A program made the translations under genes and the position numbers. DNA of 59,275 bases from a virus. The stretch's first letter is position 1. Every line of letters begins with the position of its first letter. The stretch is from positions 1 through 59,275 of IMG/VR virus record IMGVR_UViG_3300017757_000006. One strand, written 5' to 3'. Of the stretch, positions 8,716 to 44,794 are shown in pieces. The notes under the pieces are model-generated. The model saw nothing but the letters and a program-made list of their open reading frames with translations. It ran no database searches and was not told the origin of the DNA.

Positions 8716-9105
8716 TTAAAAAGATAGTTTTGTATCTGGAGTCTTGAAGTCTTTCTTTCTCATAACAGTCTTCGCAACTAAGTCCAGTTCTTTACCATCC
8801 CACTTTAATACAAACGGCATATTAACATCTGTTTGCATATCGTTGATTACCGCCTCGGCATCAGGCCCAAGTTTGGCAATCTTCTTACCGTACTTCTTAT
8901 AAGACTGTTTGAATAATCTAATAAGTTCTGCAACAGTAATCTGTTTCTTATTTCGTGTATCATTCACTCTATCTAAAAAGTGTCTGGTAAACTCAACATC
9001 AATACCGACTGCTTTATATAGTCTATCGGCATACTTCTCAACACCATCTAAGTCTTGCTTAGTAATCTCTTGTTCTGATAACAGATGTTGTCTGAAGGTT
9101 TTCAT
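8716..9105 (-). CDS. candidate capsid-targeted protein, function unknown
   Basis: 129 aa. The N-terminus MKTFRQHLLSE resembles the capsid-targeting sequence of T4 internal proteins (MKTYQEFIAE) and ends in LSE, a gp21-type (L/I)xE cleavage site at residue 11. The body contains FTRHFLDRVNDTR (about 39-51) and a C-terminal TVMRKKDF. This layout loosely recalls small RelE/colicin-type RNase folds, but I cannot assign it. It is the last member of the cargo-like cluster. Confidence 0.65.
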   Translation of the reverse strand: MKTFRQHLLSEQEITKQDLDGVEKYADRLYKAVGIDVEFTRHFLDRVNDTRNKKQITVAELIRLFKQSYKKYGKKIAKLGPDAEAVINDMQTDVNMPFVLKWDGKELDLVAKTVMRKKDFKTPDTKLSF

Positions 9106-9109
9106 TGTT

Positions 9110-9640
9110 CTATTTTACTTTAGACAATGCAAAGTTGGCAATCTTCTGAAAGTCTGCCTTTTTACCATTAATAAGTTTCTTCATCTTATCTTTATTAGAT
9201 TTGTTTACTAAATCAAATACCTGTGTAACGGCAGAGGCAGTAAACATATCTACCTTCATAGAACCATCTTTGAATTTCACAGATTTGTGTTGTTTGGTTT
9301 TTACAATGTTCTTTAGAACGTCAATGTTGTCTTCTGCAAGAAGATATTCATGTTCTCTATTGATTGTGTTTTCTTGAACCTTTGCGGCAAGTTTGGATTG
9401 TTTTTTCATTTCTCTTTTTGCCTTCAGTTCAGTCATACGTTTGTAGAACTTTCTTGCTTCCTTTGTTCTACCATCGTATGGGGATTTTGTTTTTGTTTTC
9501 TTTTTCTTCCAATGTACTGGATCATCTCCTGTACCAGCAACAGCAGCACCTGTTGAATTTGCTGGGGCGTCTTCCTGTGTCAACCCCAACATTGGATCGT
9601 CATAAAACTTTTTCATTAATTCATCAAAGTTAAGTGACAT
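9110..9640 (-). CDS. lysine-rich hypothetical protein
   Basis: 176 aa, very basic. A disordered, lysine-rich region (about 40-90, HWKKKKTKTK and similar) separates an N-terminal helix from a C-terminal helical domain (about 105-176). There is no recognised domain. It sits 4 nt upstream of the 8716-9105 gene and within the putative internal-protein cluster. Basic composition would suit a DNA-associated head protein, but this is inference. Confidence 0.6.
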   Translation of the reverse strand: MSLNFDELMKKFYDDPMLGLTQEDAPANSTGAAVAGTGDDPVHWKKKKTKTKSPYDGRTKEARKFYKRMTELKAKREMKKQSKLAAKVQENTINREHEYLLAEDNIDVLKNIVKTKQHKSVKFKDGSMKVDMFTASAVTQVFDLVNKSNKDKMKKLINGKKADFQKIANFALSKVK

Positions 9641-9641
9641 A

Positions 9642-10256
9642 CTATAAATCTCCTATGTCTAATTCCTTTATATCCTCAGAAGATACAAATATCTTCTGTT
9701 TTGTTTTGTTATGAATTACAGGAAACACATCTACGCCAAGGATAGTATCAGCGGGTGGTGTATCTTCGAATGCTTCAACTTCGTCACCTTGAAGGGCATC
9801 AAAGTCTTCTTCATCTTCTCCTGTTACGATAACGTCCTGTGTAAGAACATAAATTCCTTTAGATAACTTACCGTTATCCAAAGTTACTTCTTCCACAATA
9901 GTATTGTCAAGTTCAATATTATTTTCTTGTAAGTATTTCAAAAATTCTTTTTCAAACACTTGAGGGTCTTCAACATGTTCCTTAAAGGTATCTTTCAATA
10001 AGAATAGCGCAGCAGCATACGTTCCTACCTTAGAACGTAATCCTGGCACCTTACCAAATATTTTCTTGATATTAAAGACAAGCTTATGCAATACAGTGTA
10101 TGCACTCTGCTCTGTTTGTTTGTACAGTTTCTTGCCTGCTATACGATTACCATTCTCATCAATGATGCCAAGTTTATATGCATCAGTCTTTACGAATGGC
10201 GTTGTTAACAGTCTAATGAAACGGTAGGTAACAAATAAATCAATTGCTCTTCCCAT
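9642..10256 (-). CDS. hypothetical protein, possibly virion-associated
   Basis: 204 aa. It has a basic, helical first half (GRAIDLFVTYRFIRLLTTPF at the start) and an acidic second half with EDEEDFDALQGDEVEAFED (about 147-165). The short overlap with the upstream gene (stop and start share position 10256) shows coupling. The family is not recognised by function; similar genes occur in marine T4-like phages next to structural genes. Confidence 0.6.
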   Translation of the reverse strand: MGRAIDLFVTYRFIRLLTTPFVKTDAYKLGIIDENGNRIAGKKLYKQTEQSAYTVLHKLVFNIKKIFGKVPGLRSKVGTYAAALFLLKDTFKEHVEDPQVFEKEFLKYLQENNIELDNTIVEEVTLDNGKLSKGIYVLTQDVIVTGEDEEDFDALQGDEVEAFEDTPPADTILGVDVFPVIHNKTKQKIFVSSEDIKELDIGDL

Positions 10257-10618
10257 TATAGTTTCCCTAGAACTTCCTTAATTCTCAAATCTTCGTGAAT
10301 ATCTTGTAGTTCTGATTCTGGCAACATACCTAAAAATTTCATAAAAGTTTTTAGAGTTGTCCAGTAAACAGGCTCAATCTTAAATATCAACAAAGTAGAA
10401 CCAGCATCTACCCCAAATACATTAGTGATAACAATTAAATGATTTAGTATCAAGCGTTCTTTCAGTTCACCACTCTCATGGTATTTTCTGAACAAACGCT
10501 TAAGATACTTAAAGCGTTTCATGTCATCATCGAATTCGGGTTCACCTTCACATTGAGGATTGTTGTAATGTTTTATTGCAAACATCCTAACATTCTCATT
10601 AGTTATTTTTTCAAACAT
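10256..10618 (-). CDS. hypothetical 120-aa protein
   Basis: A mainly helical, soluble protein starting MFEKITNENVRMFAIKHYN, with one moderately hydrophobic central segment (LNHLIVITNVFGVDAGSTLL). No catalytic motif is visible. It is coupled to the 9642-10256 gene by a 1-nt overlap and they probably form a functional pair. Function unknown. Confidence 0.6.
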   Translation of the reverse strand: MFEKITNENVRMFAIKHYNNPQCEGEPEFDDDMKRFKYLKRLFRKYHESGELKERLILNHLIVITNVFGVDAGSTLLIFKIEPVYWTTLKTFMKFLGMLPESELQDIHEDLRIKEVLGKL

Positions 10619-10635
10619 TATATGTCTTTAACCGT

Positions 10636-11043
10636 TTATACGATTCTGGTTTTTAGAAAGTGCGTTCCTCCAGATGCGGTATGTTCAATCTCAATTGAAA
10701 GACCACCCTCAACTTTGTGAGAGATACCATCATCGTTAATGTCTTCGCCTGTTTCATCTTTACCGAATCTGCCACCAAACTGTGCAAGTGGCATGGATAC
10801 TTTACTACCCCCTTCTGCGAGTTCAACATCACCAAAAGAAAGTCCTAGTCTACCTAGTCTTTCTCTGATAGTACTCAAAGCATGCTCTGGGACAAGATAT
10901 TCCATCTGTCCCATTGCACCTAAGAATGAGTTGATTCTCTCAACATTTTTGGGGTTAGCAATATCATTTGAAAAGGAATCAGTATCCACTGGATAACCAG
11001 CGTCTGTTGCCTTCTCTGTTATGAATTTACTAAAGTTTTTCAT
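10636..11043 (-). CDS. candidate capsid-targeted internal protein
   Basis: 135 aa. It begins MKNFSKFITE|K, which matches the T4 internal-protein targeting peptide position by position: aromatic residues at 4 and 7, and I-x-E at 8-10. After the predicted gp21 cut the mature protein would be about 125 aa with GRFGKDETGEDINDDGISHK (about 92-111) and a C-terminal beta-rich part. The stop of the upstream acidic gene overlaps its start. Function after packaging is unknown. Confidence 0.65.
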   Translation of the reverse strand: MKNFSKFITEKATDAGYPVDTDSFSNDIANPKNVERINSFLGAMGQMEYLVPEHALSTIRERLGRLGLSFGDVELAEGGSKVSMPLAQFGGRFGKDETGEDINDDGISHKVEGGLSIEIEHTASGGTHFLKTRIV

Positions 11044-11252
11044 TACTCATCATCCTCTTCGTCTTCGTCTTCCAGTTCGTCTTCAAGATCTTCTTCAATC
11101 TCTTCAACTTCTGGTTCAACGTCAGAATGATTTGGGTTTACTTCTAGAATTTCTTGAAGTGTTTCTGTTTCAGAATTTTGCGCTTGCAATTCTTCCCAAG
11201 TAACAATCTTCTTATTCATCGGTAAACCATTTGCTCCAATACGTTCAGCCAT
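11043..11252 (-). CDS. small acidic protein
   Basis: 69 aa whose C-terminal third is almost all Glu and Asp (EEIEEDLEDELEDEDEEDDE). T4 gp67 and other prohead core proteins also have acidic tails, so this could be a core, scaffold-like or basic-protein-binding factor. That is inference from composition only. It starts 10 nt after the neighbouring gene and its end overlaps the CTS-bearing gene. Confidence 0.6.
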   Translation of the reverse strand: MAERIGANGLPMNKKIVTWEELQAQNSETETLQEILEVNPNHSDVEPEVEEIEEDLEDELEDEDEEDDE

Positions 11253-11262
11253 GATTATCTCC

Positions 11263-11715
11263 TTATGCTAATACTGCACCGTTGTTTGCAACGACTACCC
11301 AGCTACTGTTTGTAAATAAACAAGTAACAGTATCACCAACAGAATTAAATGTGATAGTACTGTAACCAGTAAGATTGGCAGGAGTTACAACTGAGTTGTT
11401 AGAACCGCCTTTTACAATCATAGTTAGAATTTTGATTTGACCATTTGTACCATTCGCCATCGCACCAGCGTGAGCGCCGGCAGTTGTGTTGATGTGCGTA
11501 ATAGACTTAGTAACGTCAATCGCTTCACTCGTTGTATCACATAGGTGAACGGTATCATCCAATGCAATATATGTTGGAATGTTATTAAAGAAGTTAGCAA
11601 CTGTCAACTTCTTGTTAACAGGGTTGCCACTTGGGTCATCAATAACGTGTAATAGATCCTCGGCGGCAATGCCTGAACCTAGATCTGCTAGTGCAGTAAT
11701 TTTTTTATCTGCCAT
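11263..11715 (-). CDS. probable virion surface protein
   Basis: 150 aa. The N-terminal part (MADKKITALADL, then DLLHVIDDPSGNPVNKKLT) is a motif common at the start of phage fibre and decoration proteins. The rest is rich in Thr, Asn, Gly and Val, with beta-structure composition. A good Shine-Dalgarno (AAGGAGAAA) precedes the start. Probably a head or tail decoration protein; the site on the virion is unknown. Confidence 0.65.
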   Translation of the reverse strand: MADKKITALADLGSGIAAEDLLHVIDDPSGNPVNKKLTVANFFNNIPTYIALDDTVHLCDTTSEAIDVTKSITHINTTAGAHAGAMANGTNGQIKILTMIVKGGSNNSVVTPANLTGYSTITFNSVGDTVTCLFTNSSWVVVANNGAVLA

Positions 11716-11742
11716 TTCTTTTCTCCTTAATTGTTAAAACCC

Positions 11743-11997
11743 TCAACTCAGTACAGTATTTACTGCACTATTGTCTTGCGAGGGAATGCTACTGTCGGGA
11801 CTCGACTCACTTAATTGGTTTAGAAATACATCACATTGTTGGATTGCGCCTTGTAAAGCATTACCCTGTGAAGTTAACTGCACCTTCATTCTTTCTAGTT
11901 CATTCAGGCGTTCTTGAACTTTGTCTAGATCGCCCTTCAGAACATTTTTAGTTTCTTCAATTTCGCTAACACTAAGTGTCTTTTCATTTTTTTTCAT
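11743..11997 (-). CDS. coiled-coil hypothetical protein
   Basis: 84 aa. Residues 8-70 are a charged, leucine-spaced helix typical of a coiled coil, and the last 15 residues are Ser-rich. It lies directly downstream of a TATAAATA late promoter at 12020-12027, so it is probably expressed late with the two adjacent surface-protein genes. A chaperone-like or structural role is possible; no family recognised. Confidence 0.6.
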   Translation of the reverse strand: MKKNEKTLSVSEIEETKNVLKGDLDKVQERLNELERMKVQLTSQGNALQGAIQQCDVFLNQLSESSPDSSIPSQDNSAVNTVLS

Positions 11998-12019
11998 AAT
12001 AACCTCTATATTATACTTT

Positions 12020-12027
12020 TATTTATA
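12020..12027 (-). promoter_or_regulatory. late promoter (TATAAATA)
   Basis: Exact T4-type late element on the minus strand, 22 nt upstream of the start at 11997, with AGAGGTT between as ribosome-binding site. Confidence 0.75.
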
Positions 12028-12031
12028 CTAC

Positions 12032-13063
12032 TTATGCGACTACAGTTAACGACTGTTGAGTTGCACCAGTTGTTGCAAGTGCAGCAGCAGAACCAGCAAG
12101 TGTTGCAGTTGCCTGTTGAGCAAGTCCTGTACCAGCAAGTAGAATGTCTGGAGCAGTTGAATAACCAGCACCAGCGGCGTTCACTGCAAGTGAAGCGACT
12201 GCAAGTGTCAAGTCAAATGTTGCACCAGAACCACTACCAGTATTTACTGATTGTTGTGCAATTCCTGTAACACCACCAGCGATTGCAGAGTATACGCCTG
12301 GAGCAGCAGGTTTTACTGTTGCAGTTAATACTGCACCAGAGTTAACTGTTGCAACTACTAGTACTGCATTAGTTCCTGTACCGAAACCGTTTGCAATAGT
12401 AATTTCGTTACCTACTGCATAGTTAGCACCACCAGCAGCAACTGTCGCAGAGTGTACTTTAGCAACAAGTGTATTTACTGTACCAACTGTAGTTGATGCA
12501 ACATTCGTATCAACTGAAGCAGTTGGGAATGTTGTAGAACCAGCAGTTGCAGTAGCAATAGCGATTGATGCAAGTTTGTCACCTTCTGCACCAACAATAG
12601 TACCACCGTTAAGTGTTACTGCTGAAGCAGATGGTGAACCACCACCAATTTTCAGCACGTCTGTTGCAGAAACAGTTTGAGATGCTTTAGTGAATCTCAA
12701 CTTGTTAGTTCCTGTACCACTTGCGTAGTCTAGTGTGTAATCTCCGTTACCAGCACTTGAGTTGTTGGCATTATCCACAACCAACCTTGGAGTACCAGTT
12801 ACAACAACCTTTTCGTTGAATGTGACATCAACAGAAATTGTTCTTGAACCAGCAGCAAGAGATGATTGTACGAAACGCACAGCAGTAATATCAGAAGCAT
12901 TTAATGCACCTGACAATCCACCGATTGCACAAATGACTTCTTCAAGTCCTTTGCCGTTTAATTGTGTCCAACCAGCATTGGTTGCAAACACGTTAGTTTT
13001 TTGGTCAGCAGTGAGCCACTTTGGTTTGGCTTCATCTGCATCTGTATTTCCCCATAGGGCCAT
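12032..13063 (-). CDS. large Ala/Thr/Gly-rich virion protein with Ig-like domain
   Basis: 343 aa beginning MALWGNTDADEAKPKWLT. The middle (about 75-150) reads like a bacterial Ig-like/SwmB-type beta domain (ISVDVTFNEKVVVTGTPRL ... DYASGTGTNKLRFT). The C-terminal half is a low-complexity Ala-Gly-Thr beta region with repeats of the type VxAAGGANYAVGNEI and VNAAGAGYSTAPDI. There are no Cys residues apart from one near the N-terminus. It is probably an exposed head or tail protein. A late promoter lies 32 nt upstream of its start. Confidence 0.7.
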   Translation of the reverse strand: MALWGNTDADEAKPKWLTADQKTNVFATNAGWTQLNGKGLEEVICAIGGLSGALNASDITAVRFVQSSLAAGSRTISVDVTFNEKVVVTGTPRLVVDNANNSSAGNGDYTLDYASGTGTNKLRFTKASQTVSATDVLKIGGGSPSASAVTLNGGTIVGAEGDKLASIAIATATAGSTTFPTASVDTNVASTTVGTVNTLVAKVHSATVAAGGANYAVGNEITIANGFGTGTNAVLVVATVNSGAVLTATVKPAAPGVYSAIAGGVTGIAQQSVNTGSGSGATFDLTLAVASLAVNAAGAGYSTAPDILLAGTGLAQQATATLAGSAAALATTGATQQSLTVVA

Positions 13064-13094
13064 GATATTTCTCCTAGTTTATTGTTTACTTATC

Positions 13095-13102
13095 TATTTA
13101 TC
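13095..13102 (-). promoter_or_regulatory. late promoter variant (GATAAATA)
   Basis: On the minus strand GATAAATA, 7 of 8 positions matching the late consensus, 32 nt upstream of the 13063 start. It overlaps the last codons of the HAD nucleotidase gene. Confidence 0.6.
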
Positions 13103-13610
13103 TAAATCCATTTCTCTTCAGCTGAGAAATAGTGTTGTTGGGGGATGTATGATGAATCCCAATACCACCGGCAGCCTCCCATTCTTTGATATTTTTGAGA
13201 TAATCATCAATCAAAATGTTGGGTTTACCGCTTGTCGTGGCATATTTCTGTTTATCTGCACGTTGCACCAAATGAATCCTACCAGTAGGTCTTGCATTTT
13301 TTGCTAACCACTTCTTCTTGCCAGGTCTACTGTTCGCATCCCTGTTAGAATATGCAGACAAGATGTTTGCTTTATATCTATTAATAAATTTCCACATCTT
13401 TTCAGAACCAGGCATCCAATCAAGTGTCGCCCAGAAATCCTTCTTGGACGTAATTGCATCCCATCGTTCTTCTTTGTCAGTCTTATCGAACTTCTTACCT
13501 GTAAGTTTTTCATAACCACCGATAAAATTACAGATAACCTGATCCATATCACAATAGATTTGTGGAAGTTCTTCTTCTGAAATCTTTGTAAGTTCCACAA
13601 GACTTTTCAT
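13098..13610 (-). CDS. HAD-family 5'(3')-deoxyribonucleotidase-like protein
   Basis: 170 aa. HAD motifs are visible: motif I CDMDQV (nucleophile and acid Asp about 20 and 22), motif II LSAYSN (about 89-94), a lysine region, and motif IV ILIDDYLKN (about 131-139). The size and the DMDxV form fit the small 5'-nucleotidase group that removes phosphate from dNMPs. The N-terminus MKSLVELTKISE|E has a hydrophobic residue at 4 and 7 and I-S-E at 10-12, so it may be another capsid-targeting peptide, weaker than the others. Substrate not determined. Confidence 0.75.
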   Translation of the reverse strand: MKSLVELTKISEEELPQIYCDMDQVICNFIGGYEKLTGKKFDKTDKEERWDAITSKKDFWATLDWMPGSEKMWKFINRYKANILSAYSNRDANSRPGKKKWLAKNARPTGRIHLVQRADKQKYATTSGKPNILIDDYLKNIKEWEAAGGIGIHHTSPNNTISQLKRNGFR

Positions 13611-13613
13611 TTA

Positions 13614-14204
13614 TTAGTCCTTCTCTTTTGGGGAGACTTGAACTTTAGACATAGGTTTACCTGTCATTGTGGTATCACCACCTTTGATAGTCTTTTTCTT
13701 TTCGTCTTCATCATCATCTTCTTCAGTCTTACCATCTGCTTTCTTTGCGGCCGCTTCCCACATTGCACGAACAGAATCAGCAACTGTATCTTCTTTCATA
13801 GACTTAGAAACTGCCTTGCGTCTTTTGTGCAAGAACTTATCAGAGTCATCAACATCACCATCGTTGTCGATATCTTTGTCTTTACGGTCAGCAAACTTCT
13901 TCTTTACTGCTTTAGGTTGAACTGCGTCCAAACCTTCACCGTCATCAGACTTATCATTTTTATTGGTTTCTGTTTTCAGAACTTCTTCAACGTCATACTG
14001 TTTACCGCCGATAGTAAAGGTCTTGTCACCTTTTTCTTTTGCCATCTTTGCAGCATGGATGTAGTTATTCTCATCCTTTTCGTCTTTGGGTTTCTCACCC
14101 TTTTCTTTTTTAGAGATAGCGATTGCAGCTTGTTGAGCAGGGGAAACTGCCTCAAGCACAGCCTGTTCTAGACTACCTTCTTTTGTTTTAAGATACTTGG
14201 GCAT
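13614..14204 (-). CDS. charged protein with EF-hand-like calcium loop
   Basis: 196 aa from the ATG at 14204 (MPKYLKTKEG); the track-length reading to 14222 lacks support. It is very rich in Lys, Asp and Glu and probably mostly disordered. Residues 111-122 read DIDNDGDVDDSD, a textbook 12-residue EF-hand/dockerin calcium loop, followed by a basic helix. Related highly charged proteins occur beside head genes of marine T4-like phages. A prohead core or internal role is inference. Confidence 0.6.
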   Translation of the reverse strand: MPKYLKTKEGSLEQAVLEAVSPAQQAAIAISKKEKGEKPKDEKDENNYIHAAKMAKEKGDKTFTIGGKQYDVEEVLKTETNKNDKSDDGEGLDAVQPKAVKKKFADRKDKDIDNDGDVDDSDKFLHKRRKAVSKSMKEDTVADSVRAMWEAAAKKADGKTEEDDDEDEKKKTIKGGDTTMTGKPMSKVQVSPKEKD

Positions 14205-14205
14205 A

Positions 14206-15771
14206 TTATTTCTCCTGTGCATTCATCTTGTTAATAGTTTCTTGCGCCTTTGCGATTTGCAACTGCAACTGTGCGATACGAGTTTTCTTCTTATCATCAC
14301 GCCCCTGTTCTACCTCTTTAGCAGAATCTGGTTTCTTGGGTTCTTCTTCTTCTTTTACTTCAGGCTTATCGTGTGTATAACCCATCTTCTTCATTTTAAG
14401 ATGGTCATCCATAGTATTCGCCTTATAACCTTTACCAGTTTTAGGGTCGTACATCATGTGTGGTTCAAAGTTTTCTGGTAGTGGTTGTGATGGCCACTGA
14501 ATTGGTTCAATACCTTCTTTGATATCTACAGGCGAAACTGCCATATCTCCGAAAGCCATTGTAACCTTTCCATCTCTTTTATACAAATATCTTTTAGCAC
14601 TTGTAGGACTATCTTTTCTTGCCATAGTAATCTTTTCTACTGTACCTCTGCGAACCATATTCTTAGACTTGACAATATACTCAATAAAATCTTTACCCTT
14701 CTCTAGTGTAGAGTCGTGTTTGATTTTAACAGTAGAACCTTTCTTCAGTTTATCAAAAACTCGAAGCAACTTAGGGTCGTTCATCTTCATGCCTTCAACC
14801 AAAGCGTCTGTGATTTCTACTTCTTCTTTGTACATATTAAGTTCATATCTCTTATTGTCAAGATTTGCAACTTGAATTTGTACACCTTTAGACTTTCCTT
14901 TTTTATCCATACCCATCAAACGATATTTGTTTGTTTTTCCTGATGATGGTTTACGAGGCCCCATTGCAACTTTATCATCTATTTCATCTGAGTCAATTTC
15001 AATTCCAAGTTTCTTTTTTGCATAGTCATATGCATGTTGCATTGCAGCAGAGAATGTCTTGTGATATAAGTCATACTTCTCATCAAGTTCAACTTCTTCA
15101 CCCATTCTAAGTTGTTTTGAGACCATCTTAGTAGTGTTCAACATATCACGATACGACTTAGAAATCATAGCGACAAACTTTTCTTTGTCTCGTGGTTTAC
15201 GAATCATGTCGTATGCTTTTAGTAGAGTATCAACAATCTTAGAATCAACTTTTTGTTTCTTGCCGTCTTGGAATTCTAAAGAAAAGTTACCTCGTGTATC
15301 CATAGCTTTACGCAACTGTGTAACCATATTCTTACCAGCAGACTTCTGATCAGCATCAGTTGCAACGTCATCAACGTCAGCAGGGTCAATACCACGTTTA
15401 CCCATAGCCCTCATTGCATCACGTTTTGCCTTAGATGATTCTTTTACATCTTTAGGTTTGCCACATGACTCACATATTGATTCTTTACAATCACAATCAC
15501 ATGAACACATCTCTTTAACCTCTGGGTCATAGTCCGTGTTTAGTCTTTTCAGAACAGCAGCAACCTGTGGGTGGTCTGCCAATCCCTTTTTAATTTTCTC
15601 AATCGTTCTTACTGCACCACTATAGTTACCACCTTTGTAACGTGGGTCGTTTGCAATACCGATTGCCATTTTTACTTGTTTAGTGGTATACCCTCTAGAT
15701 TGAAACTTTTCATCCAATCCCTCACGAACCTCTTGAAGAGCTTCAGTCATAGTTTTAGTATATCTAGTCAT
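14206..15771 (-). CDS. large candidate internal head protein with several LxE sites
   Basis: 521 aa, basic and modular. The N-terminus MTRYTKTMTE|A follows the targeting-peptide layout (Tyr 4, M-T-E at 8-10). Further (L/I)xE sites occur at E14, E21, E231, E326 and E419, mostly at borders between helical or compositional segments. Residues 89-103 hold a cysteine cluster CSCDCDCKESICESC. It ends in a coiled coil (about 485-521). No enzyme domain recognised. It is coupled to both neighbours (8-nt overlap upstream, 1-nt gap downstream). A polyprotein cleaved in the prohead is a hypothesis. Confidence 0.6.
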   Translation of the reverse strand: MTRYTKTMTEALQEVREGLDEKFQSRGYTTKQVKMAIGIANDPRYKGGNYSGAVRTIEKIKKGLADHPQVAAVLKRLNTDYDPEVKEMCSCDCDCKESICESCGKPKDVKESSKAKRDAMRAMGKRGIDPADVDDVATDADQKSAGKNMVTQLRKAMDTRGNFSLEFQDGKKQKVDSKIVDTLLKAYDMIRKPRDKEKFVAMISKSYRDMLNTTKMVSKQLRMGEEVELDEKYDLYHKTFSAAMQHAYDYAKKKLGIEIDSDEIDDKVAMGPRKPSSGKTNKYRLMGMDKKGKSKGVQIQVANLDNKRYELNMYKEEVEITDALVEGMKMNDPKLLRVFDKLKKGSTVKIKHDSTLEKGKDFIEYIVKSKNMVRRGTVEKITMARKDSPTSAKRYLYKRDGKVTMAFGDMAVSPVDIKEGIEPIQWPSQPLPENFEPHMMYDPKTGKGYKANTMDDHLKMKKMGYTHDKPEVKEEEEPKKPDSAKEVEQGRDDKKKTRIAQLQLQIAKAQETINKMNAQEK

Positions 15772-16039
15772 TTTTTTCTTCCCAAATTTTAAGAACTAGT
15801 TGACCCGTTCTCTTTATTATTCTGTGATACTCCATCTTAGGTATCCTGTATAGTTTTCCTTTTGACATCTCTTCTGGTAATTGATTGTCCATTTGTAATT
15901 TCCAACCTATACCAGATATGACAGATACTTCTCTTGTCCTTTTATCTCTGTGCCAGATTAACTCTTGTTCATCTACAGACTCACTAAAAGTTCTCAGTAT
16001 TGTATCTTCGTGTCTTTGGTCATCATATGGGTTTACCAA
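15764..16039 (-). CDS. conserved-looking 91-aa protein
   Basis: A compact soluble protein with LIWHRDKRTREVSVISG (about 27-43) followed by WKLQMDNQLP and a C-terminal YHRIIKRTGQLVLKIWEE. The mix of beta-type hydrophobics and His/Arg suggests a small folded domain. It overlaps the 652-aa gene by 7 nt and the 521-aa gene by 8 nt, so all three are made together. No family recognised. Confidence 0.6.
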   Translation of the reverse strand: MVNPYDDQRHEDTILRTFSESVDEQELIWHRDKRTREVSVISGIGWKLQMDNQLPEEMSKGKLYRIPKMEYHRIIKRTGQLVLKIWEEKND

Positions 16040-17991
16040 AAGAAGTTGCCCCCACCAGACAAACCAAGTTGTTTAGCATATCTCGGCATGTTACATGCCC
16101 AATATCCTGCCTTTGTCTTATCTTTTTTATTTGCACAATCATGTCTTGCAGCAAATGATTTTCTTGCCTCTTTGTCATTTAACTTGATTTTTAATCCAGT
16201 TGTATCACCCCATGATACCTTTTTGATATTTCCAGATGATGGGTCTTTGACATAGACATAGTATTTCTTCGGCCCGCCTGCCTTAGGTTTATTTAGTTCA
16301 ACGTCTTTTCCTTGATACTCTGATTCCATCATTGGACAATCTAGTGGAACATTCTCCCCCTCATAGACTGCGTACTTACCGATATCACCTTCCATCAATT
16401 CCTTATTGAACCCTGTAGGATTAAACTCTCCAGACTTATACTCAACTCTTTTCTCTTGGAAGAACTCGTAGTACTTCTCAGAACCAACACGATATTCGTT
16501 TGATTCTATTAAACTTGCAGTCTTGCATTCTTGACAACAATCTTCTGTTCCACAATGCAAATGTTCTTTGAATGAGATGATAGGTTTAGAAGGAGCCATT
16601 TGATTACTTTCTTTTACTTCAGTTTCTTCTTTCTGTCCCTTTGCTTGTTTCCACAAGTCTGCATCACCAGTAGTTCTAGTCTTACCACCAGTGATAAAAG
16701 AGTTAACTCTAGCAAACGCCCACTGCTGTGGTGTTGTGCCAGGGCGGTGTCCTGTCTTCCACGCCGCCATACCTCTATCGTATACTTTCTTTAGAATACC
16801 ATATGAGATACCAGACTTGTCTGCTTTCTTAACAAGTCCTTCAATCTTCTCATCTAGCAACATAAGTTCAACTTCAGGCGGATAATTATATCCCTCTTTA
16901 GGAACACAGTTTGGCACCATTTTGCCGCCCTTCTTCTTCATTCCTTGTTGTGTGTGAGTATCCCAACATGGGTCGTCTTCACCAAACATTTGTTTGAACT
17001 TCTTTGTATGCTTGGATGGTTTAGTCTCTGCACCCTTATCGCCAGGAGCAGGCCCATCCTTTGCTTTTGCAAAATGTGCTGCACGTTTCTTTTTAGTAGA
17101 TACTGACATTTCATCACCATCAGCATCTTTTGCATAATACTTTGCTGGTTCAGTACCTTTTCTATCTTTAATATCTTTGTCTTGTTTTACTTCATATAAC
17201 CACTTCTTGTGAGTAGTACCGTCTTGTTCTGAGAACACAAGATAGTTTGTGCCTCTACGAATAACTTTACCAGATACGCCTGTGTAGTTATCTTCTACAA
17301 TATCACCAATTGCATAGATTGTACCTTCAATGTACATATCACGAATTACATCTTCTTCTGTCTGTTCTACTTGGTGTACAATGAAAGACTCACGAATGCC
17401 CATATGTTTACGAACATCTTTGAATAAAGACATTCCTTGTTTGAAGTTTTTAGGAAGTCCATTCTTAAAAGAATCAAAATCATCAGCAGATGCTGCAGCA
17501 CGCATCTTAGAAGCAGACATCCCTGTCACTCCCTCTGCATCTGGGTCTCTTTCACCAGCAGATACAACCTCAATATTGTCGAACCCATAGTAACCGTGTC
17601 TACCTTCAACACCATTATACTTGTTCAACAATGTATCAAACTCTGTTACACGATCAGAACCAACAACCATCACGACTGATTTATGTCCTTTATTGTGTAG
17701 TGATACTGCAATTTCGAATACTTGTCTCGCTTTATCAACAACAATGTTCCTTGCATGTTTTGGGAACATCTTCTTCATGTAAGCAACTTTCTTACTGTAA
17801 GGAAGAGGGTCTTTCTTAGGGTTCTCTGAGTGTGATGCAAAAACATAGTATGGAGCGCCAGGATTTTTCTTTGCCTGTTTCTCTACTGCTTCTAAAAGTT
17901 TTTCATGTCCTGTAGTTGGTGGATTGAATCTACCAAAGGTGAAAACACATGTATCCCCACGAGCTTCTCTAATGTCTTTGAAACTTTTCAT
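16033..17991 (-). CDS. multidomain capsid-targeted nucleotidyltransferase (candidate cargo polyprotein)
   Basis: 652 aa. It starts MKSFKDIRE|A, a targeting-type peptide. Residues 13-195 are a cytidylyltransferase-like domain (FGRFNPPTTGHEKLL, SASKMR), the fold of NMN/cofactor adenylyltransferases. Residues 222-268 look like an SH3/KOW-type barrel; 283-310 a short KYYAKDADGDEMSVSTKKKR module; 341-365 CWDTHTQQGMKKKGGKMVP; 390-448 a module with YGILKKVYDRGMAAWKTGH. Residues 470-500 carry a CCxxC cluster, and 575-652 a C-terminal module ending AKQLGLSGGGNFFW. (L/I/M)xE sites at E201, E381, E496, E534 and E556 fall between modules. Enzyme specificity is unknown. Confidence 0.7.
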   Translation of the reverse strand: MKSFKDIREARGDTCVFTFGRFNPPTTGHEKLLEAVEKQAKKNPGAPYYVFASHSENPKKDPLPYSKKVAYMKKMFPKHARNIVVDKARQVFEIAVSLHNKGHKSVVMVVGSDRVTEFDTLLNKYNGVEGRHGYYGFDNIEVVSAGERDPDAEGVTGMSASKMRAAASADDFDSFKNGLPKNFKQGMSLFKDVRKHMGIRESFIVHQVEQTEEDVIRDMYIEGTIYAIGDIVEDNYTGVSGKVIRRGTNYLVFSEQDGTTHKKWLYEVKQDKDIKDRKGTEPAKYYAKDADGDEMSVSTKKKRAAHFAKAKDGPAPGDKGAETKPSKHTKKFKQMFGEDDPCWDTHTQQGMKKKGGKMVPNCVPKEGYNYPPEVELMLLDEKIEGLVKKADKSGISYGILKKVYDRGMAAWKTGHRPGTTPQQWAFARVNSFITGGKTRTTGDADLWKQAKGQKEETEVKESNQMAPSKPIISFKEHLHCGTEDCCQECKTASLIESNEYRVGSEKYYEFFQEKRVEYKSGEFNPTGFNKELMEGDIGKYAVYEGENVPLDCPMMESEYQGKDVELNKPKAGGPKKYYVYVKDPSSGNIKKVSWGDTTGLKIKLNDKEARKSFAARHDCANKKDKTKAGYWACNMPRYAKQLGLSGGGNFFW

Positions 17992-18383
17992 TATTCCGTA
18001 CCCATTCCTCTTGCCTTTTTAAGTCTTTCCAACTCCGACTTACGGAGTTTAACCATTAACTTTTTTGCAATCTTTTTAACTGCAGCGCCCTTAGTTTTCA
18101 TTATTCTATTATCTAGGTTCTGTCTTTGCATCAAAGATAGGTTTGCATATTCGTTTGGTTCTAGTCCAGCAAACTTCTTAATAATAAATTGCTTTGCTTG
18201 TTTATTTGCACGTTGTTTAAGTTTGCCATCTGAGGCTAACTTCTTTTTATTTCTTGCAACCTTTGCCTTGAATGCAGAAGACTTTGTAAGTTTCTTCATT
18301 CGTAAACCCATCTTGCGTCTAGTCGCAACAGACAGCGCTTTACGTTCAGTCAAGTCAGATATGAGATCATTCCATTCAATCAT
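17991..18383 (-). CDS. very basic candidate internal protein
   Basis: 130 aa from the ATG at 18383, which overlaps the upstream stop as ATGA; a GTG at 18392 is possible. About a quarter of residues are Lys or Arg, with a strong positive charge throughout (KLTKSSAFKAKVARNKKK). The N-terminus MIEWNDLISDLTE has Trp at 4 and L-T-E at 11-13, loosely like the targeting peptide. A DNA-binding protein packaged with the genome, comparable to T4 IPIII in charge, is a reasonable inference. It ends in a 1-nt overlap with the 652-aa gene. Confidence 0.6.
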   Translation of the reverse strand: MIEWNDLISDLTERKALSVATRRKMGLRMKKLTKSSAFKAKVARNKKKLASDGKLKQRANKQAKQFIIKKFAGLEPNEYANLSLMQRQNLDNRIMKTKGAAVKKIAKKLMVKLRKSELERLKKARGMGTE

Positions 18384-19630
18384 TTGTCCCACGCCTTAAT
18401 TGCAGTAAAGTTATTAAAACTAAATTCCATACGGTCTACTAGTTTTACTGCATCACCAGATACCCTGTCGATTGCAACATAACCTTCTGGATTAGTAACC
18501 TTAAATCCATTTGATGTTTTAATGAATGTATCAGTTAATCCCTTGACACTATTTAGTTTCTTAACAATTCCCATCTTTGCATCAACCAAGTGTCCTTGGA
18601 AGGCAATGATGTTCTCTAAATTCTTTGTGTGTTTTTTGACTTCACGAAGATACTCAGTCTGAAGATTGGTATACTTCTCTTTACCTTTGTCACTTTTAAC
18701 TTTGTCTATTTGTTTTTGAATTGCATCGAATACCCACTTCTCGTATCCCTTTGCATGTCCTCTGGGGTCACTAATCTTCTGTCCCTGTCGAACTTTACTA
18801 TTATTGTATGTTTTTAATTGAGCACCGGCAAGTTGTCCTGTAAATACATCCTGTAGTTTTAAGAACTTGTTTAATTGTGCAGAATTAATTTTCCTAAATG
18901 TAGAACCAGCAGATGATAATGATTTAGTGACAACAGCAGTCTCAGTTGCTGTCATAGTTGCCTTACCAGATACATCCTTGTATGTTGCATCGTCCATCCA
19001 AACAGATGAGGGTTTGGTAAGTCCCTTAATGTTTGCACCGAATTTAGCTTTCATCCCTTGCAAATCACTACCAGAATATGTTGTGTGCCATACGACACCA
19101 ATCTTTGAATACTTGATTATTTTGCCCAAGTCAGAGTTTACATCTACTGCATATACGATTGTGTTTGGTTGAAAGGTATAATACTTCTTACCTTCGATAG
19201 TTGTTGTGTCAACATCTTCAGAAGTATACATCAAGTCGCCCTGTAGAACGTCTTTGATACCTAACTTGGAAAACTCTGCAAGTGCAATTTTGAACTTAGT
19301 GTTCAGTGAACCAGAAAGTCCATCTGCATCAATCTCTTCAGATGTTTTGTAGAGTTTTGGAGTTGCGTTGAATACTGACTTCTTTGCAACAAAGAATTTA
19401 CCATCAGCAGGGTCGATACCAGCAAAGATTGCGGGCGCACCATCCCACTTGACAGTCATATTTACAGATGAACGAGATGCACCAGCTAACATGTCTCTGA
19501 GTGAACGAACAAAGTTAATTGCTGCTCTACCGCCAGGCACTCCGAAATTCAAAATTTCGTCTTCGATGTGTTCTAAGTGTAGGTTTTTCCCACCTTTATC
19601 TTCAGCGAGATACCCCGAAAAGTTTAGCAT
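18380..19630 (-). CDS. ligase/nucleotidyltransferase-superfamily protein with capsid-targeting N-terminus
   Basis: 416 aa. The N-terminus MLNFSGYLAE|D matches the T4 internal-protein peptide (aromatic 4 and 7, L-A-E 8-10). K61 lies in VKWDGAPAIF, the KxDG motif I of DNA/RNA ligases and capping enzymes. Downstream candidates are FVAKKS (80-85), LQGDLMY (129-135, motif III-like) and IGVVWHTTYSG (177-187, motif IV-like). The rest is helical. Polynucleotide ligation or adenylation is therefore likely but unproven. It has its own TATAAATA late promoter, unlike T4 ligase gp30, which is early. Confidence 0.7.
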   Translation of the reverse strand: MLNFSGYLAEDKGGKNLHLEHIEDEILNFGVPGGRAAINFVRSLRDMLAGASRSSVNMTVKWDGAPAIFAGIDPADGKFFVAKKSVFNATPKLYKTSEEIDADGLSGSLNTKFKIALAEFSKLGIKDVLQGDLMYTSEDVDTTTIEGKKYYTFQPNTIVYAVDVNSDLGKIIKYSKIGVVWHTTYSGSDLQGMKAKFGANIKGLTKPSSVWMDDATYKDVSGKATMTATETAVVTKSLSSAGSTFRKINSAQLNKFLKLQDVFTGQLAGAQLKTYNNSKVRQGQKISDPRGHAKGYEKWVFDAIQKQIDKVKSDKGKEKYTNLQTEYLREVKKHTKNLENIIAFQGHLVDAKMGIVKKLNSVKGLTDTFIKTSNGFKVTNPEGYVAIDRVSGDAVKLVDRMEFSFNNFTAIKAWDK

Positions 19631-19668: not shown

Positions 19669-19676
19669 TATTTATA
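19669..19676 (-). promoter_or_regulatory. late promoter (TATAAATA)
   Basis: Exact late element, 38 nt upstream of the start of the ligase-like gene at 19630. It would drive the whole coupled cargo cluster 18380-13614 late in infection. Confidence 0.75.
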
Positions 19677-21067: not shown

Positions 21068-21365
21068 CGCTTGCATCTGTAAAGTGGCCCTCATCTATAT
21101 TCTGTTCAATTAAATGTGCTAGAATGTCTCCAATGAGATTAAAGAAATCATCACCAAAGCATTCTTTACCTAGTCCATTAGAGTCTAACATATTCCACTC
21201 AAATTGTAAAGAGGCATTTTCTTTTTTTTCGTCTTCTATTATAGAAACTTTACCATACTCGTATACAACACCTTGCCACATACCAGCTTTTTCTGTAAGT
21301 CCTATACCTGTCCATGTCTTAGATTCGTTCTCTACAAACTTGTAATACTCACCCATGTCAGACAT
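21039..21365 (-). CDS. hypothetical 108-aa protein
   Basis: An acidic protein beginning [20 protein letters not shown], with a C-terminal helical part. It is placed between the oxygenase gene (8-nt overlap) and the helicase gene (overlap), so it belongs to the uvsX-gp41 transcript. ATGs at 21365 and 21356 are both possible. No domain recognised. Confidence 0.6.
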   Translation of the reverse strand: MSDMGEYYKFVENESKTWTGIGLTEKAGMWQGVVYEYGKVSIIEDEKKENASLQFEWNMLDSNGLGKECFGDDFFNLIGDILAHLIEQNIDEGHFTDASDDDRKDNIQ

Positions 21366-41546: not shown

Positions 41547-42866
41547 TTACATGATGTTTGTAACTTGTACTCTTCTGTAGTACACGTTGTCGTTAGCAGT
41601 TAAAGCACCACCACGAGCAGTCGCACCACCAGCAAATGGGTTAGCAGTCATGCCGTAGCGTGTCTTGAAACCGATTTTTGGTTGGAAAGTGTTTTCACCA
41701 ACCGCACGAACCATTTGTAATGGAACGTATGGGCAGTAGAAAAGACCTGCGTCATATGGTGAAGTACCTTTGTAACCCACTGTGAAGTACTGTTTTGCAG
41801 CACCGTTTGCAGCATATGGGTCGATGTAGACTTTGTAACGTCCGTTAAGTACACCAGCAAAAGTAGAGCCTGCATCGTCAACATTCAAGTTGTTGTTCAG
41901 AGCAGGAGTGTAATCCAATTGTCCAGCCATTTGAAGTGCAGATGCAACATCAGATGAACAGATAATCATGTTACCTTTTCCTCTACGAGTTTGTTGTGCA
42001 ATTACGTTTGCTTCACGTTCTACTTGGAACATAAGTCCTTTGAACTTTTCAACACTCCAACGTCCGTTTGAGTCAACGTCCATGTCAAATATACCACCTG
42101 TAGCAGTATCTACTTGAGCGCCTGGCTTAGCAGTTACATATACTGTACGAACAACTTCACGGTTGATTTCGTTCAATATTTCAGCAGATAGGATGTTTGC
42201 AAGTTCTGTTTCAGCGTCCAAACCGTGGATTGCTTTAAGGTCTTGTGCAAGTTCCATTGTGTATTCTGCTTTAAGAGCACGTGATTTAGCAGTAACAGTT
42301 TGCTTTTCGATTGAGAAAGACATCTCAGCGAATGCATTGTTAGATGCGTCACCTAGTGCTTCAGCAGTTGTAGTTGACATACCACCATCAGCAGTATATG
42401 CGCCTGGCGAACCATCGTTAAGAACAGCAGGGTTAGTTTCACCGTTAGATGAAGTACCGGCGCTGCCTGGGATGTTTGAGTTTGCAGCAGCACCTGAGAA
42501 TGCAGATTCTGCTTCGTTGTAGAATGCTTCATCGCCTGTCTGTGAATCAAAGCGTGAGCGCATTGCGAAGATCAAGCCTGTTGGGCCTGTCATTGGTTGA
42601 ACGCCAGCAATATCATATGCGATAAGGTTAGGCATAGAACGTCTAACTAATGAGATCATAATTGGATCCCAGTTGTCAACATTTGCGCCTGTAGCGTTAA
42701 CTGGTGCAGCTTCTGAAAGGAAGTTTGAATCCTCACGAAGTGCTTTTTCTTGGTTTTCTAGGATAACTGTGGTTACAGCTTTTTTGTAAGAATCCTTGAT
42801 CTCTGGAAGATCATTGTGTTCTAGGACTGGCTGCCACTTTTCCTGTAGATGTTCTGTCTGGAACAT
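41547..42866 (-). CDS. 23: major capsid protein (T4 gp23)
   Basis: 439 aa. HK97-fold capsid protein of the T4 family, with NWDPIMISLVRRSMPNLIAYD and GPTGLIFAMRSRF as characteristic segments. NFLSE|AAP at residues 48-55 is a gp21 cleavage site (LxE|A), so the first 52 residues form the propeptide. This shows directly which cleavage rule the phage uses. Late promoter at 42898-42905 upstream and a strong terminator downstream, giving a monocistronic high-level transcript. Confidence 0.96.
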   Translation of the reverse strand: MFQTEHLQEKWQPVLEHNDLPEIKDSYKKAVTTVILENQEKALREDSNFLSEAAPVNATGANVDNWDPIMISLVRRSMPNLIAYDIAGVQPMTGPTGLIFAMRSRFDSQTGDEAFYNEAESAFSGAAANSNIPGSAGTSSNGETNPAVLNDGSPGAYTADGGMSTTTAEALGDASNNAFAEMSFSIEKQTVTAKSRALKAEYTMELAQDLKAIHGLDAETELANILSAEILNEINREVVRTVYVTAKPGAQVDTATGGIFDMDVDSNGRWSVEKFKGLMFQVEREANVIAQQTRRGKGNMIICSSDVASALQMAGQLDYTPALNNNLNVDDAGSTFAGVLNGRYKVYIDPYAANGAAKQYFTVGYKGTSPYDAGLFYCPYVPLQMVRAVGENTFQPKIGFKTRYGMTANPFAGGATARGGALTANDNVYYRRVQVTNIM

Positions 42867-42924: not shown

Positions 42925-44097
42925 TTATTTTGCACGCTTTACATTTTTGCTAATTGCACTCATATAAGCACTCATAGCGCCAGTTGTATCAAAAGATTGA
43001 CCGTTTTCTTCAACAGCATCTACTGATTCAGCGACAGTTGTTGCCTTTGGAAAATAACTTTCCTTCAGCGTTTCAAGTTTTTCACTGAAAGCTTCTTCAG
43101 TTGTAAACTCTACATCTTCTGCAAGAGACTTAAATTTTTCAATTTCTGTATCTGCAAGGTCAGAAGCGACTTCTGCGAAAACTGACTCACGAACCAATAC
43201 ATCTTTTTCACTCTTCAGTGAAGCAGACTTTTCGATTTGTTCATTCAATTTTGCTTCCAATTCATCAATCTTTACAGACTGTTGACCTAGAATGTCATAC
43301 TTTTCATCTGGAATATCAACATAATGTTCTTCGAACAATGATTTTAGTCCAGAAATAAAGTCTTCTGCGATCTCACCTTTGAGTCCACGCTCAATAGCGA
43401 TTTCGTTTTCTTTCATCCACTCTTCTACAACGTAGTTCATGTATGCGTCAACTTTTTCAGTCAACTCACTGCGTACTGAAGCAACTTCTTCTGCAACTTC
43501 TTGCATTTTAGCTTCTTCAATTCTCGCAACTTCTGAACGAAGTTTTGATTTAACAGCAGCTTCAAAGATTGTGGATGCTTTTTCTTTGAATTCCTCAGAA
43601 AGTTCTTCACCTTGTGTAAGGGCAGTAACATCTTCAGAAACATCTACAGATGCAAGACGGTCTTCCAAAGTAGATTCATCTACTTCTTCTTTATCATCTT
43701 CATCTTCTTCTTCTTCTTCATTTTTCATAAGCTTGTCGTATGACGCTTTCAAATCTGTTGCTTTCATTTTTTCCATTTCGGAATACATTGCTTTCAACAT
43801 TTCTGCTTTTGTCATTTTTCCTTCTTCAAGCTCCTCGCCTTCATGATCGAGTTCTGTGTCTTCTTTGGTTGCACTAGCTTTTGGTTCTGCAGCTTTCTTA
43901 ACTTTTGCAGACGCCTTTTTACCAGCACTGTCCTTTGATTCTGGATCAACGACAGCTTTACCCAAATCTTCTACTTCCCCATCGGCTTTTTCCATTGAGT
44001 CGCTTTTTCCAGCTCCGTCAGTAGGTTTCTTTGCTTCTTCAAGCTCAGCACTAACTTCCGCTTCCAGCTCCTCAATTGTCTTGTCTAGTTCTGACAT
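42925..44097 (-). CDS. 22: prohead core scaffold (T4 gp22)
   Basis: 390 aa from the ATG at 44097 (MSELDKTIEELEAEVS), downstream of the late promoter; the longer frame to 44178 would start upstream of it. The protein is very acidic and helical, with long Glu-rich coiled coils, the composition of T4 gp22. It forms the inner core on which gp23 assembles and is then degraded by gp21. Order gp21-gp22-gp23 is as in T4. It is larger than T4 gp22 (269 aa). Confidence 0.9.
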   Translation of the reverse strand: MSELDKTIEELEAEVSAELEEAKKPTDGAGKSDSMEKADGEVEDLGKAVVDPESKDSAGKKASAKVKKAAEPKASATKEDTELDHEGEELEEGKMTKAEMLKAMYSEMEKMKATDLKASYDKLMKNEEEEEDEDDKEEVDESTLEDRLASVDVSEDVTALTQGEELSEEFKEKASTIFEAAVKSKLRSEVARIEEAKMQEVAEEVASVRSELTEKVDAYMNYVVEEWMKENEIAIERGLKGEIAEDFISGLKSLFEEHYVDIPDEKYDILGQQSVKIDELEAKLNEQIEKSASLKSEKDVLVRESVFAEVASDLADTEIEKFKSLAEDVEFTTEEAFSEKLETLKESYFPKATTVAESVDAVEENGQSFDTTGAMSAYMSAISKNVKRAK

Positions 44098-44134
44098 TGG
44101 GATCTCCTTGATTGGTTTTGTCTTATCATAATCA

Positions 44135-44146: not shown

Positions 44147-44794
44147 TTAAAGTTTAGACATAAATTTTGCAAAGGCAAGTGCGGAAACTTTAGAGTCCCT
44201 ACGTCTTACCCCTTCATTTATATCATTCTTGATTTCGGCAACGTCAACTTCTTTCAGTATACCATTGTTCCATACCCACTCTTTACCTTCCATAATACCT
44301 TCAACAAAGGCTTGGGGTGCAGAAGGGTCTGCAACAATATCTGCCCCAGTGGCACGATAAAAATCATCTTTCACATAATTCGCACCTGATTTACTTTCGA
44401 TAGAACCCATGCCTCTTGAAGAGACACCAAGTTTACCACCGTCTTTAATTAGTGCTTTCGCAATTTCCCCCATCGGAGTTGAGAGCAATTTTGCTTCACC
44501 GACAAAGTTCTTTCCATCCGCTTCCAGTTTTGTGATCATGTGCGATACTCTGTCAAGATTGACAGTAGGGCCTTCTGGATGTCCCAGCTCCCCGAATGCA
44601 CGACCTTCAGCAACAAATTCTTTGTTATAGCGTTTCACTTCTTTATTAAGAACCGCCATTGGGTAGACACGACCATTACGGTTTTTCATGTCTGCCTGCA
44701 TAAAGATTCCACGAATCTTCATATCCTTTTTACCATCCTCTTTTTCTTCAAGGATGTATTCTACGTCTTGTATCTGTTCTGCTATTAGTTTCAT
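44147..44794 (-). CDS. 21: prohead core protease (T4 gp21)
   Basis: 215 aa. Catalytic histidine in GELGHPEG and serine in GVSSRGMGS identify the herpes-like prohead protease family. It cuts head proteins after (L/I)xE during maturation; the site in gp23 of this phage is LSE|A. Proteins at 8716-19630 that carry the same motif after a targeting-type N-terminus are candidate substrates. Confidence 0.94.
   Translation of the reverse strand: MKLIAEQIQDVEYILEEKEDGKKDMKIRGIFMQADMKNRNGRVYPMAVLNKEVKRYNKEFVAEGRAFGELGHPEGPTVNLDRVSHMITKLEADGKNFVGEAKLLSTPMGEIAKALIKDGGKLGVSSRGMGSIESKSGANYVKDDFYRATGADIVADPSAPQAFVEGIMEGKEWVWNNGILKEVDVAEIKNDINEGVRRRDSKVSALAFAKFMSKL

Follow-up and report, generated by a model that had tools for sequence, protein, structure and literature searches.

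The capsid-targeting sequence and the internal proteins of phage T4 have long been known (PMC9026906). We analysed a virus contig (IMG/VR record IMGVR_UViG_3300017757_000006; 59,275 bases, hereafter the window) of a T4-superfamily phage near the Methylophilales (OM43) phage Melnitz (MZ577097), in which genes for proteins with a leader of this kind span most of a block bounded on one side by the gp41 helicase gene (19688-21094) and on the other by the gp61 primase gene (5075-6091). As with the Mullaney-Black sequence of T4 IPII and IPIII, the leader covers about 10 residues, with an aromatic residue at position 4 (in the best cases also at 7), L or I at 8 and Glu at 10; in both phages gp21 is encoded in the genome, the products look like late head components, and unrelated bodies stand behind one leader. 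Unlike IPII and IPIII, the window bodies include cytidylyltransferase, nucleotidase and DUF6267 domains and long module strings, the spacing varies (Glu at 9-13) and several leader variants occur (MKxF, MTRY). Two other T4 proteins, IPI (an injected anti-restriction protein) and Alt (an injected ADP-ribosyltransferase), offer a functional model for injected cargo, and no homolog of either was identified in the window. As the earlier note on this DNA had proposed, the block proteins are very probably packed into the head via a T4-type N-terminal address, because the leader is conserved, its Glu is specific when compared with a Lys control, a late box precedes the block, gp21 is encoded and published virion proteomics has detected homologs. 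The late promoter and the modular, perhaps polyprotein, make-up of the cargo go beyond that note.

The block keeps its position in Melnitz, HTVC008M, S-SM1, S-PM2 and S-SZBM1. Melnitz genes 16-31 form an orthologous block, with most genes in the same order and a late box, and differ from the window by one extra tagged first gene (MQGFKTFLSEAK) and by other module orders; the DUF6267 proteins of the two phages are 77% identical. The T4-type genes of the contig comprise gp20, gp21, gp22, gp23, sheath, terminase, polymerase, primase and others, names other than gp21 being given by likeness to annotated Melnitz genes. The cytidylyltransferase or NMNAT found in virions of cyanophages S-SM1, S-SZBM1, S-SCSM1 and S-CREM2 has a domain homologous to that of the window's 16033 gene (genes are named by their first coordinate), and in S-SM1 and S-SZBM1 the gene neighbourhood is also that of the window; unlike in the cyanophages, the window domain continues into DUF5824 and further modules. 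Among open-access papers using the term "capsid targeting sequence", no title or abstract deals with cyanophages or other marine phages, so that, within this literature, the link between tag and enzymes and the modular design appear to be new. Overall, the known T4-type system is extended here, by a rule that can be used for prediction and by a modular design that appears new; it is not a new kind of system.

The leader in the window and in relatives

The five leaders that had been quoted for this block were all found as described, in open reading frames on the minus strand: 8716-9105 (MKTFRQHLLSE), 10636-11043 (MKNFSKFITE), 14206-15771 (MTRYTKTMTE), 16033-17991 (MKSFKDIRE) and 18380-19630 (MLNFSGYLAE). 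The leaders of 18380, 10636 and 14206 have the full T4 spacing, that of 16033 is one residue shorter and that of 8716 one longer. Two more had been put forward as weaker cases. The first, 17991-18383 (MIEWNDLISDLTE), in which LxE ends at residue 13, is upheld by relatives starting with MKTFRELFE, MKNFKDLYE or MKTFDELLFELSE. The second, 13098-13610 (MKSLVELTKISE), with Leu at 4 and IxE ending at 12, holds in part: one relative starts with MKTFNQYIFE, and most have Leu at 4 (MKxLxxLxE). Leaders of a second class, with the pattern M[TS]xYxK[TS]MxE, stand on differing bodies in the window's 14206 gene and at loci L054, L070, L071 and L078.

Under a strict rule (F, Y or W at residue 4 and [LIVM]xE with E at residues 8-11), 5 of the 17 block genes fit, and none of the 63 remaining genes of the window does (P = 2.6e-4, to be read with the motif having been chosen after the earlier reader's examples were seen). 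Since the rule was shaped by those examples, it was tried in other genomes, where it fitted 5/21 block genes against 5/200 outside in Melnitz (P = 9e-4) and 2/11 against 0/223 in S-SM1 (P = 0.002). In T4, used as a control, the rule picked ipII and ipIII (MKTYQEFIAE), gp2 and, by chance, lysozyme e; ipI was missed because its ITE sits at residues 17-19. Throughout the relatives' loci, 157 of 1930 first ATGs supported by a ribosome-binding site fitted (8.1%), compared with 32 of 8914 internal Met (0.36%). Fits to the strict rule by RecA homologs (MPDFLKQIIKETG) and by a small number of other proteins were put down to chance. The genes 9110-9640 (MSLNFDELMKKFYDD) and 15764-16039 lack the leader.

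For the orthologs, N-termini were taken from public contigs and counted once per distinct sequence, with shuffled sequences as the expectation. Both the aromatic residue at 4 and [LI]xE were present in 43 of 53 N-termini of the DUF6267 protein (0.34 expected), 39 of 50 of the cytidyltransferase (0.43 expected) and 14 of 18 of the 10636 protein (0.07 expected), these counts not being independent events as the sequences are related. F4 and [LI]xE are kept, residues 2, 3, 5, 6, 7 and 9 vary freely, and relatives of 17991 have W or F at 4 and LxE somewhat further in (E at 8-14 in 26/29). The DUF6267 leaders MLNFSGYLAE, MINFSSFLTE, MKSFFEILNE, MISFAQLTE and MIGFKELIIE are all followed directly by the nearly constant DKGGKNLHLE. 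Such sliding of the spacing, with change at all other residues, points to constraint on the aromatic residue 4 and on [LI]xE. The start annotated for Melnitz gene 16 (L002:13272-14528), MLTLINFSKYITED, is probably too early, an inner TTG giving MINFSKYITED as in relatives.

A search for such N-termini on unrelated bodies, which had also been suggested, was made in DNA free of homology, using a ribosome-binding site followed by MKxFxxF[LIM]xE, with Lys in place of Glu as control; the two sets were compared by their composition at positions outside the query and not by totals. Among the matches listed, 72 of 82 starts of the Glu pattern led into open frames of at least 60 residues, in about 37 body groups, and the control had long open frames in 40 of 80. 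In the same matches, residue 3 was S or T in 60/82 of the Glu set versus 18/80 of the control, Phe at 8, which the pattern allows, occurred once versus 19 times, and residue 11 favoured S or A in the Glu set. The unqueried positions thus converge on the T4 sequence MKTYQEFIAEA in the Glu set only. Listed bodies included DUF6267 (with KYDG), cytidyltransferase, S-adenosylmethionine (SAM) lyase (PF23780, E 2e-17) and one body that weakly matched ADP-ribosyltransferase, and for most bodies recovered by the motif alone there was no family in Pfam.

A T4-type late promoter box (TATAAATA) stands ahead of the first block gene. All 10 of its window copies lie on the coding strand, with 4.2 expected in all, and copies also stand ahead of gp18, of gp22 and gp23, and of the 40885-41457 gene; in Melnitz the box is found 39 nucleotides ahead of the first block gene and also ahead of many structural genes. 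Late expression of the tagged block is supported by these boxes, whose presence ahead of it is more in keeping with head components than with early metabolism. The gp23 gene (41547-42866) contains the site NFLSE/A that had been reported for it (here and below a slash marks a predicted cut or a module junction).

Homologs in virions and the proposed route into the head

The cytidylyltransferase T4-GC190 was detected in S-SM1 virions by Sullivan et al. 2010 (PMC3037559). This protein, SSM1_190, starts with MKKFSAFLNEA, and across 80 loci the leader of S-SM1-type cytidyltransferases reads MK[KSN]F[SN]AFL[TNSIV]EA. A cytidylyltransferase or NMNAT is likewise present in virions of S-SZBM1 (PMC9146016) and S-SCSM1 (PMC9602691); S-SZBM1_140 begins with MRFRQFIIEA, which follows this pattern with one residue fewer. 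The virion protein list of S-CREM2 also includes a cytidylyltransferase (PMC10665884, Table 3), in a paper from which the words "targeting" and "N-terminal" are absent. We scored all 219 S-CREM2 proteins for the tag, 52 of them detected in virions and 167 undetected. The four virion enzymes that are neither structural nor involved in lysis all carry the tag core: the SAM lyase (MKDFDSFLEE), the APH-like kinase (MKRFDAFLTE), the cytidylyltransferase (MKNFSSFLTE) and the Cas9-like nuclease (RFASFMAE, behind a 17-residue extension). The strict rule is fitted by 3 of these 4 versus 2 of the 167 undetected proteins (P = 5e-5). The virion-reported SAM lyase, Cas9-like nuclease and APH-like kinase, with their capsid-targeting core, are gp6, gp12 and gp14 of this phage (L299).

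We propose that the genes between gp41 and gp61 would form a late head-cargo operon, with at least six tagged products (the DUF6267 protein, the cytidylyltransferase/DUF5824 protein, the 14206 string, 10636, 8716 and 17991) and probably the 13098 nucleotidase. The capsid-targeting sequence would bind the cargo to the gp22 core during prohead building, gp21 would cut after (L/I/M)xE, and the mature protein would stay inside the head; judged from the sequence, cutting at the leader Glu is likely. Judged by the example of T4 IPI and Alt, it may then be ejected with the DNA into the host and be active in the first minutes of infection.

Several observations weigh against packaging by this route. 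The DUF6267 proteins of S-PRM1, S-PM2 and S-SZBM1 lack the tag and start at the domain, that of the HTVC008M type has a short LxE only, and phiM12 gene 458 has no tag. The residue after the DUF6267 cut site is Asp, and Ala in T4 IPII and IPIII; the 14206 leader has Thr at position 7, with no aromatic residue there. Over all detected S-CREM2 proteins, the strict rule gives 3/52 versus 2/167 (P = 0.09), and a looser core rule, set after the data were seen, gives 5/52 (P = 0.009). The virion proteomics, moreover, concerns cyanophage homologs, from phages other than this one.

The tag accounts for enzymes that were repeatedly reported in purified cyanophage particles, where carry-over was one suggestion, and would provide both a mechanism for addressing them and a rule, based on sequence, for predicting the phage proteins that go into the cell along with the DNA. 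Outside the window, proteins likely to act in counter-defence or take-over bear it as well (SAM lyase, kinase, Cas9-like nuclease), and injected effectors of marine phages thereby become directly testable.

Modules, possible internal cutting and other readings

Small modules make up the proteins of 14206 and 16033; among homologs these modules are arranged in more than 40 orders, and they move between proteins and occur elsewhere either fused or as separate genes. The phiM12 gene 458, directly upstream of gp61, encodes a single chain of 602 residues in which relatives of 17991, of DUF5824 and of 8716 are united; in the window these three are split. Examples of junctions are EEVELDE/KYDLYHK, EEVELDE/GYSPKEIKMA, DALVE/GMKMNDPK and EELGE/ALTYSQR. 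With module anchors placed by eye ahead of counting, [LIVM]xE was found at most 10 residues before an internal module start in 106 of 129 distinct contexts, against 39.1 when the same linkers were shuffled; it occurs in 5.4% of 10-mers within modules, and the commonest linker is VELDE. The variety of orders, the fused and separate occurrences, the excess of sites before module starts and the phiM12 chain all speak for an extension of the packaging explanation, not a competitor to it, to which we give an even chance: the larger cargo would consist of polyproteins, gp21 also cutting the [LIV]xE linkers between modules and freeing small proteins into the head. Against this stand the anchors having been set by eye, the linkers of Melnitz, where, taken alone, the ExDE type was not significantly richer in the block, and the 14206 model, whose predicted local distance difference test (pLDDT) score of 50.6 is too poor for defining modules or proving separate folds; the acidic linkers in common could also be plain recombination joints. 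Tentatively, we suggest that T4-superfamily phages, including Kyanoviridae, deliver modular cargo in which one head address is followed by module strings joined by prohead-protease sites, shuffling giving a phage-specific cocktail and head maturation processing the polyprotein. The design of modules and cut sites, if true, would amount to delivery of a polyprotein through a system that head maturation itself produces.

We consider it unlikely that the tagged proteins are scaffold or core parts needed for head building and not injected effectors. T4 IPIII does help head assembly (PMC9026906), and several window proteins are small and basic, but the bodies include enzymes and, unlike gp22, are freely swapped or lost between relatives; T4 internal proteins, too, are mostly dispensable (PMC9026906). 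Highly improbable is the explanation that the enzymes are ordinary cytoplasmic auxiliary metabolic genes, with N-termini due to chance or to a translational signature and virion detection due to carry-over, for although the S-SZBM1 paper (PMC9146016) lists the cytidylyltransferase as an auxiliary metabolic gene and the S-SCSM1 authors (PMC9602691) raise possible carry-over, it is opposed by the late box, the conserved (L/I)xE, the unqueried positions that converge on the T4 sequence, the presence of one type of enzyme in virions prepared independently from four phages and the tags on unrelated bodies.

Block proteins and further tagged bodies

The features of the window that bear on packaging into the head are collected in Table 1.

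Table 1. Leaders, genes, late promoter box and predicted cut sites in the window (positions from the first base)
Position	Strand	Feature	Basis or remark
8716..9105	-	Small basic protein with MKTFRQHLLSE as its leader (residues 1-11)	Body is an inner module in phiM12
10636..11043	-	Small protein, fold unknown, leader MKNFSKFITE (residues 1-10)
13098..13610	-	NT5C-type 5'(3')-deoxyribonucleotidase, leader MKSLVELTKISE (Leu-4 variant)	PF06941
13614..14204	-	Cargo-like protein, third leader (MPKYLKTKEGSLEQAVLEA), EF-hand-like DIDNDGDVDDSD module	Sequence
14206..15771	-	Module string, shuffled: d1, Cys-rich, d3, d4, d5, d6, d7
14794..14802	-	LVE site preceding module d5, predicted internal cut
15079..15102	-	Linker ending VELDE, modules d3/d4, predicted internal cut	pLDDT <50 at residues 224-233
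15742..15771	-	Leader MTRYTKTMTE (14206 gene), second leader class	Predicted cut before A11
16033..17991	-	Cytidylyltransferase-like (PF01467) + DUF5824 (PF19141) multi-module protein	First-domain homologs in cyanophage virions
16849..16857	-	LDE site preceding DUF5824 module, predicted internal cut	Deduced
17965..17991	-	Capsid-targeting sequence MKSFKDIRE (16033 gene)	Predicted cut before A10
17991..18383	-	Very basic protein (isoelectric point 10.9), leader MIEWNDLISDLTE (residues 1-13)	Body is an inner module in phiM12
18380..19630	-	DUF6267 protein, KWDG/EGxV/KLV nucleotidyltransferase-like motifs, predicted cargo	PF19782, E 1.3e-102, 344 bits
19601..19630	-	Capsid-targeting sequence MLNFSGYLAE (18380 gene)	Predicted cut before D11
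19669..19676	-	T4-type late promoter box TATAAATA	38 nucleotides ahead of first block gene (18380-19630)
41547..42866	-	gp23 major capsid protein, NFLSE/A site (by sequence), late box upstream
42925..44103	-	gp22 scaffold core protein, late box upstream	Likeness to Melnitz genes
44147..44794	-	gp21 prohead protease, presumed cutter	PF03420, E 2e-34

The earlier note had named a nucleotidyltransferase, a nucleotidase and a ligase-like enzyme among the cargo. The first two identities passed the Pfam cut-offs: the 16033 protein matches PF01467 with 29.9 bits (cut-off 21) and has the signature GRFNPPTTGH, and the 13098 protein matches PF06941 with 26.1 bits (cut-off 24.8) and phrog_2643 with E 2e-30. 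Of the third, the motifs were borne out. KWDG (61-64), GD, EG.V (382-385) and KLV (396-398) are invariant in 39 DUF6267 sequences. In covalent nucleotidyltransferases (DNA and RNA ligases), motif I is KxDG, motif IV EGxV and motif V K, and by these definitions the DUF6267 protein has all three. Its model, of moderate confidence (pLDDT 74), is weak around the motifs and unordered at residues 1-15. A fold search against the PDB gave no significant match and no ligase; among viral models the significant matches look like its own family, several of them annotated as cytidyltransferase fusions, again with no ligase, and a sequence search against solved structures returned chance ribosomal matches only. 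With motifs alone and no fold match, "ligase-like" is a lead only. Speculatively, the cargo might help the phage to take over NAD or nucleotides, or to counter a defence that depletes NAD.

Several further bodies were met in the relatives. One protein with the leader MKTFKQFIFE (L377:1723-2589) has a weak ADP-ribosyltransferase match (PF03496, below cut-off) that recalls T4 Alt. The commonest body of the motif search, among the matches listed, is MKSFRQFISESVNIAGDFTGNLYINSQ, of 106 residues and with no Pfam family (L356:2327-2644 and ten relatives). Tagged proteins at or near the block start are MQGFKTFLSEAK (L002:12203-13288), MLSFTGYSNLSEAR (L130:12947-14005), MKSFTGFLKESE (L211:2359-3627) and MLRFKGYLQEAY (L113:4859-5956); none has a Pfam family in those scanned, and the window has no such gene. 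A P-loop kinase resembling zeta toxin (PF06414, E 3e-13 and 3e-12) occurs in HTVC008M (L130:15742-16404), where its gene sits within the block, in Melnitz (L003:15855-16523) and at many loci from L133 to L212; with N-termini such as MIPFILKE/GLYDP, MERFIIQE/GLYDP and MKTFAELQE/GVYDP, it is probably another tagged cargo enzyme. Finally, the module DKDIDNDGDVDDSDKFLHKRRKAVSK of 13614-14204 and many relatives resembles a single calcium loop of the EF-hand or dockerin type and is conserved in cargo proteins from pelagiphages to cyanophages.

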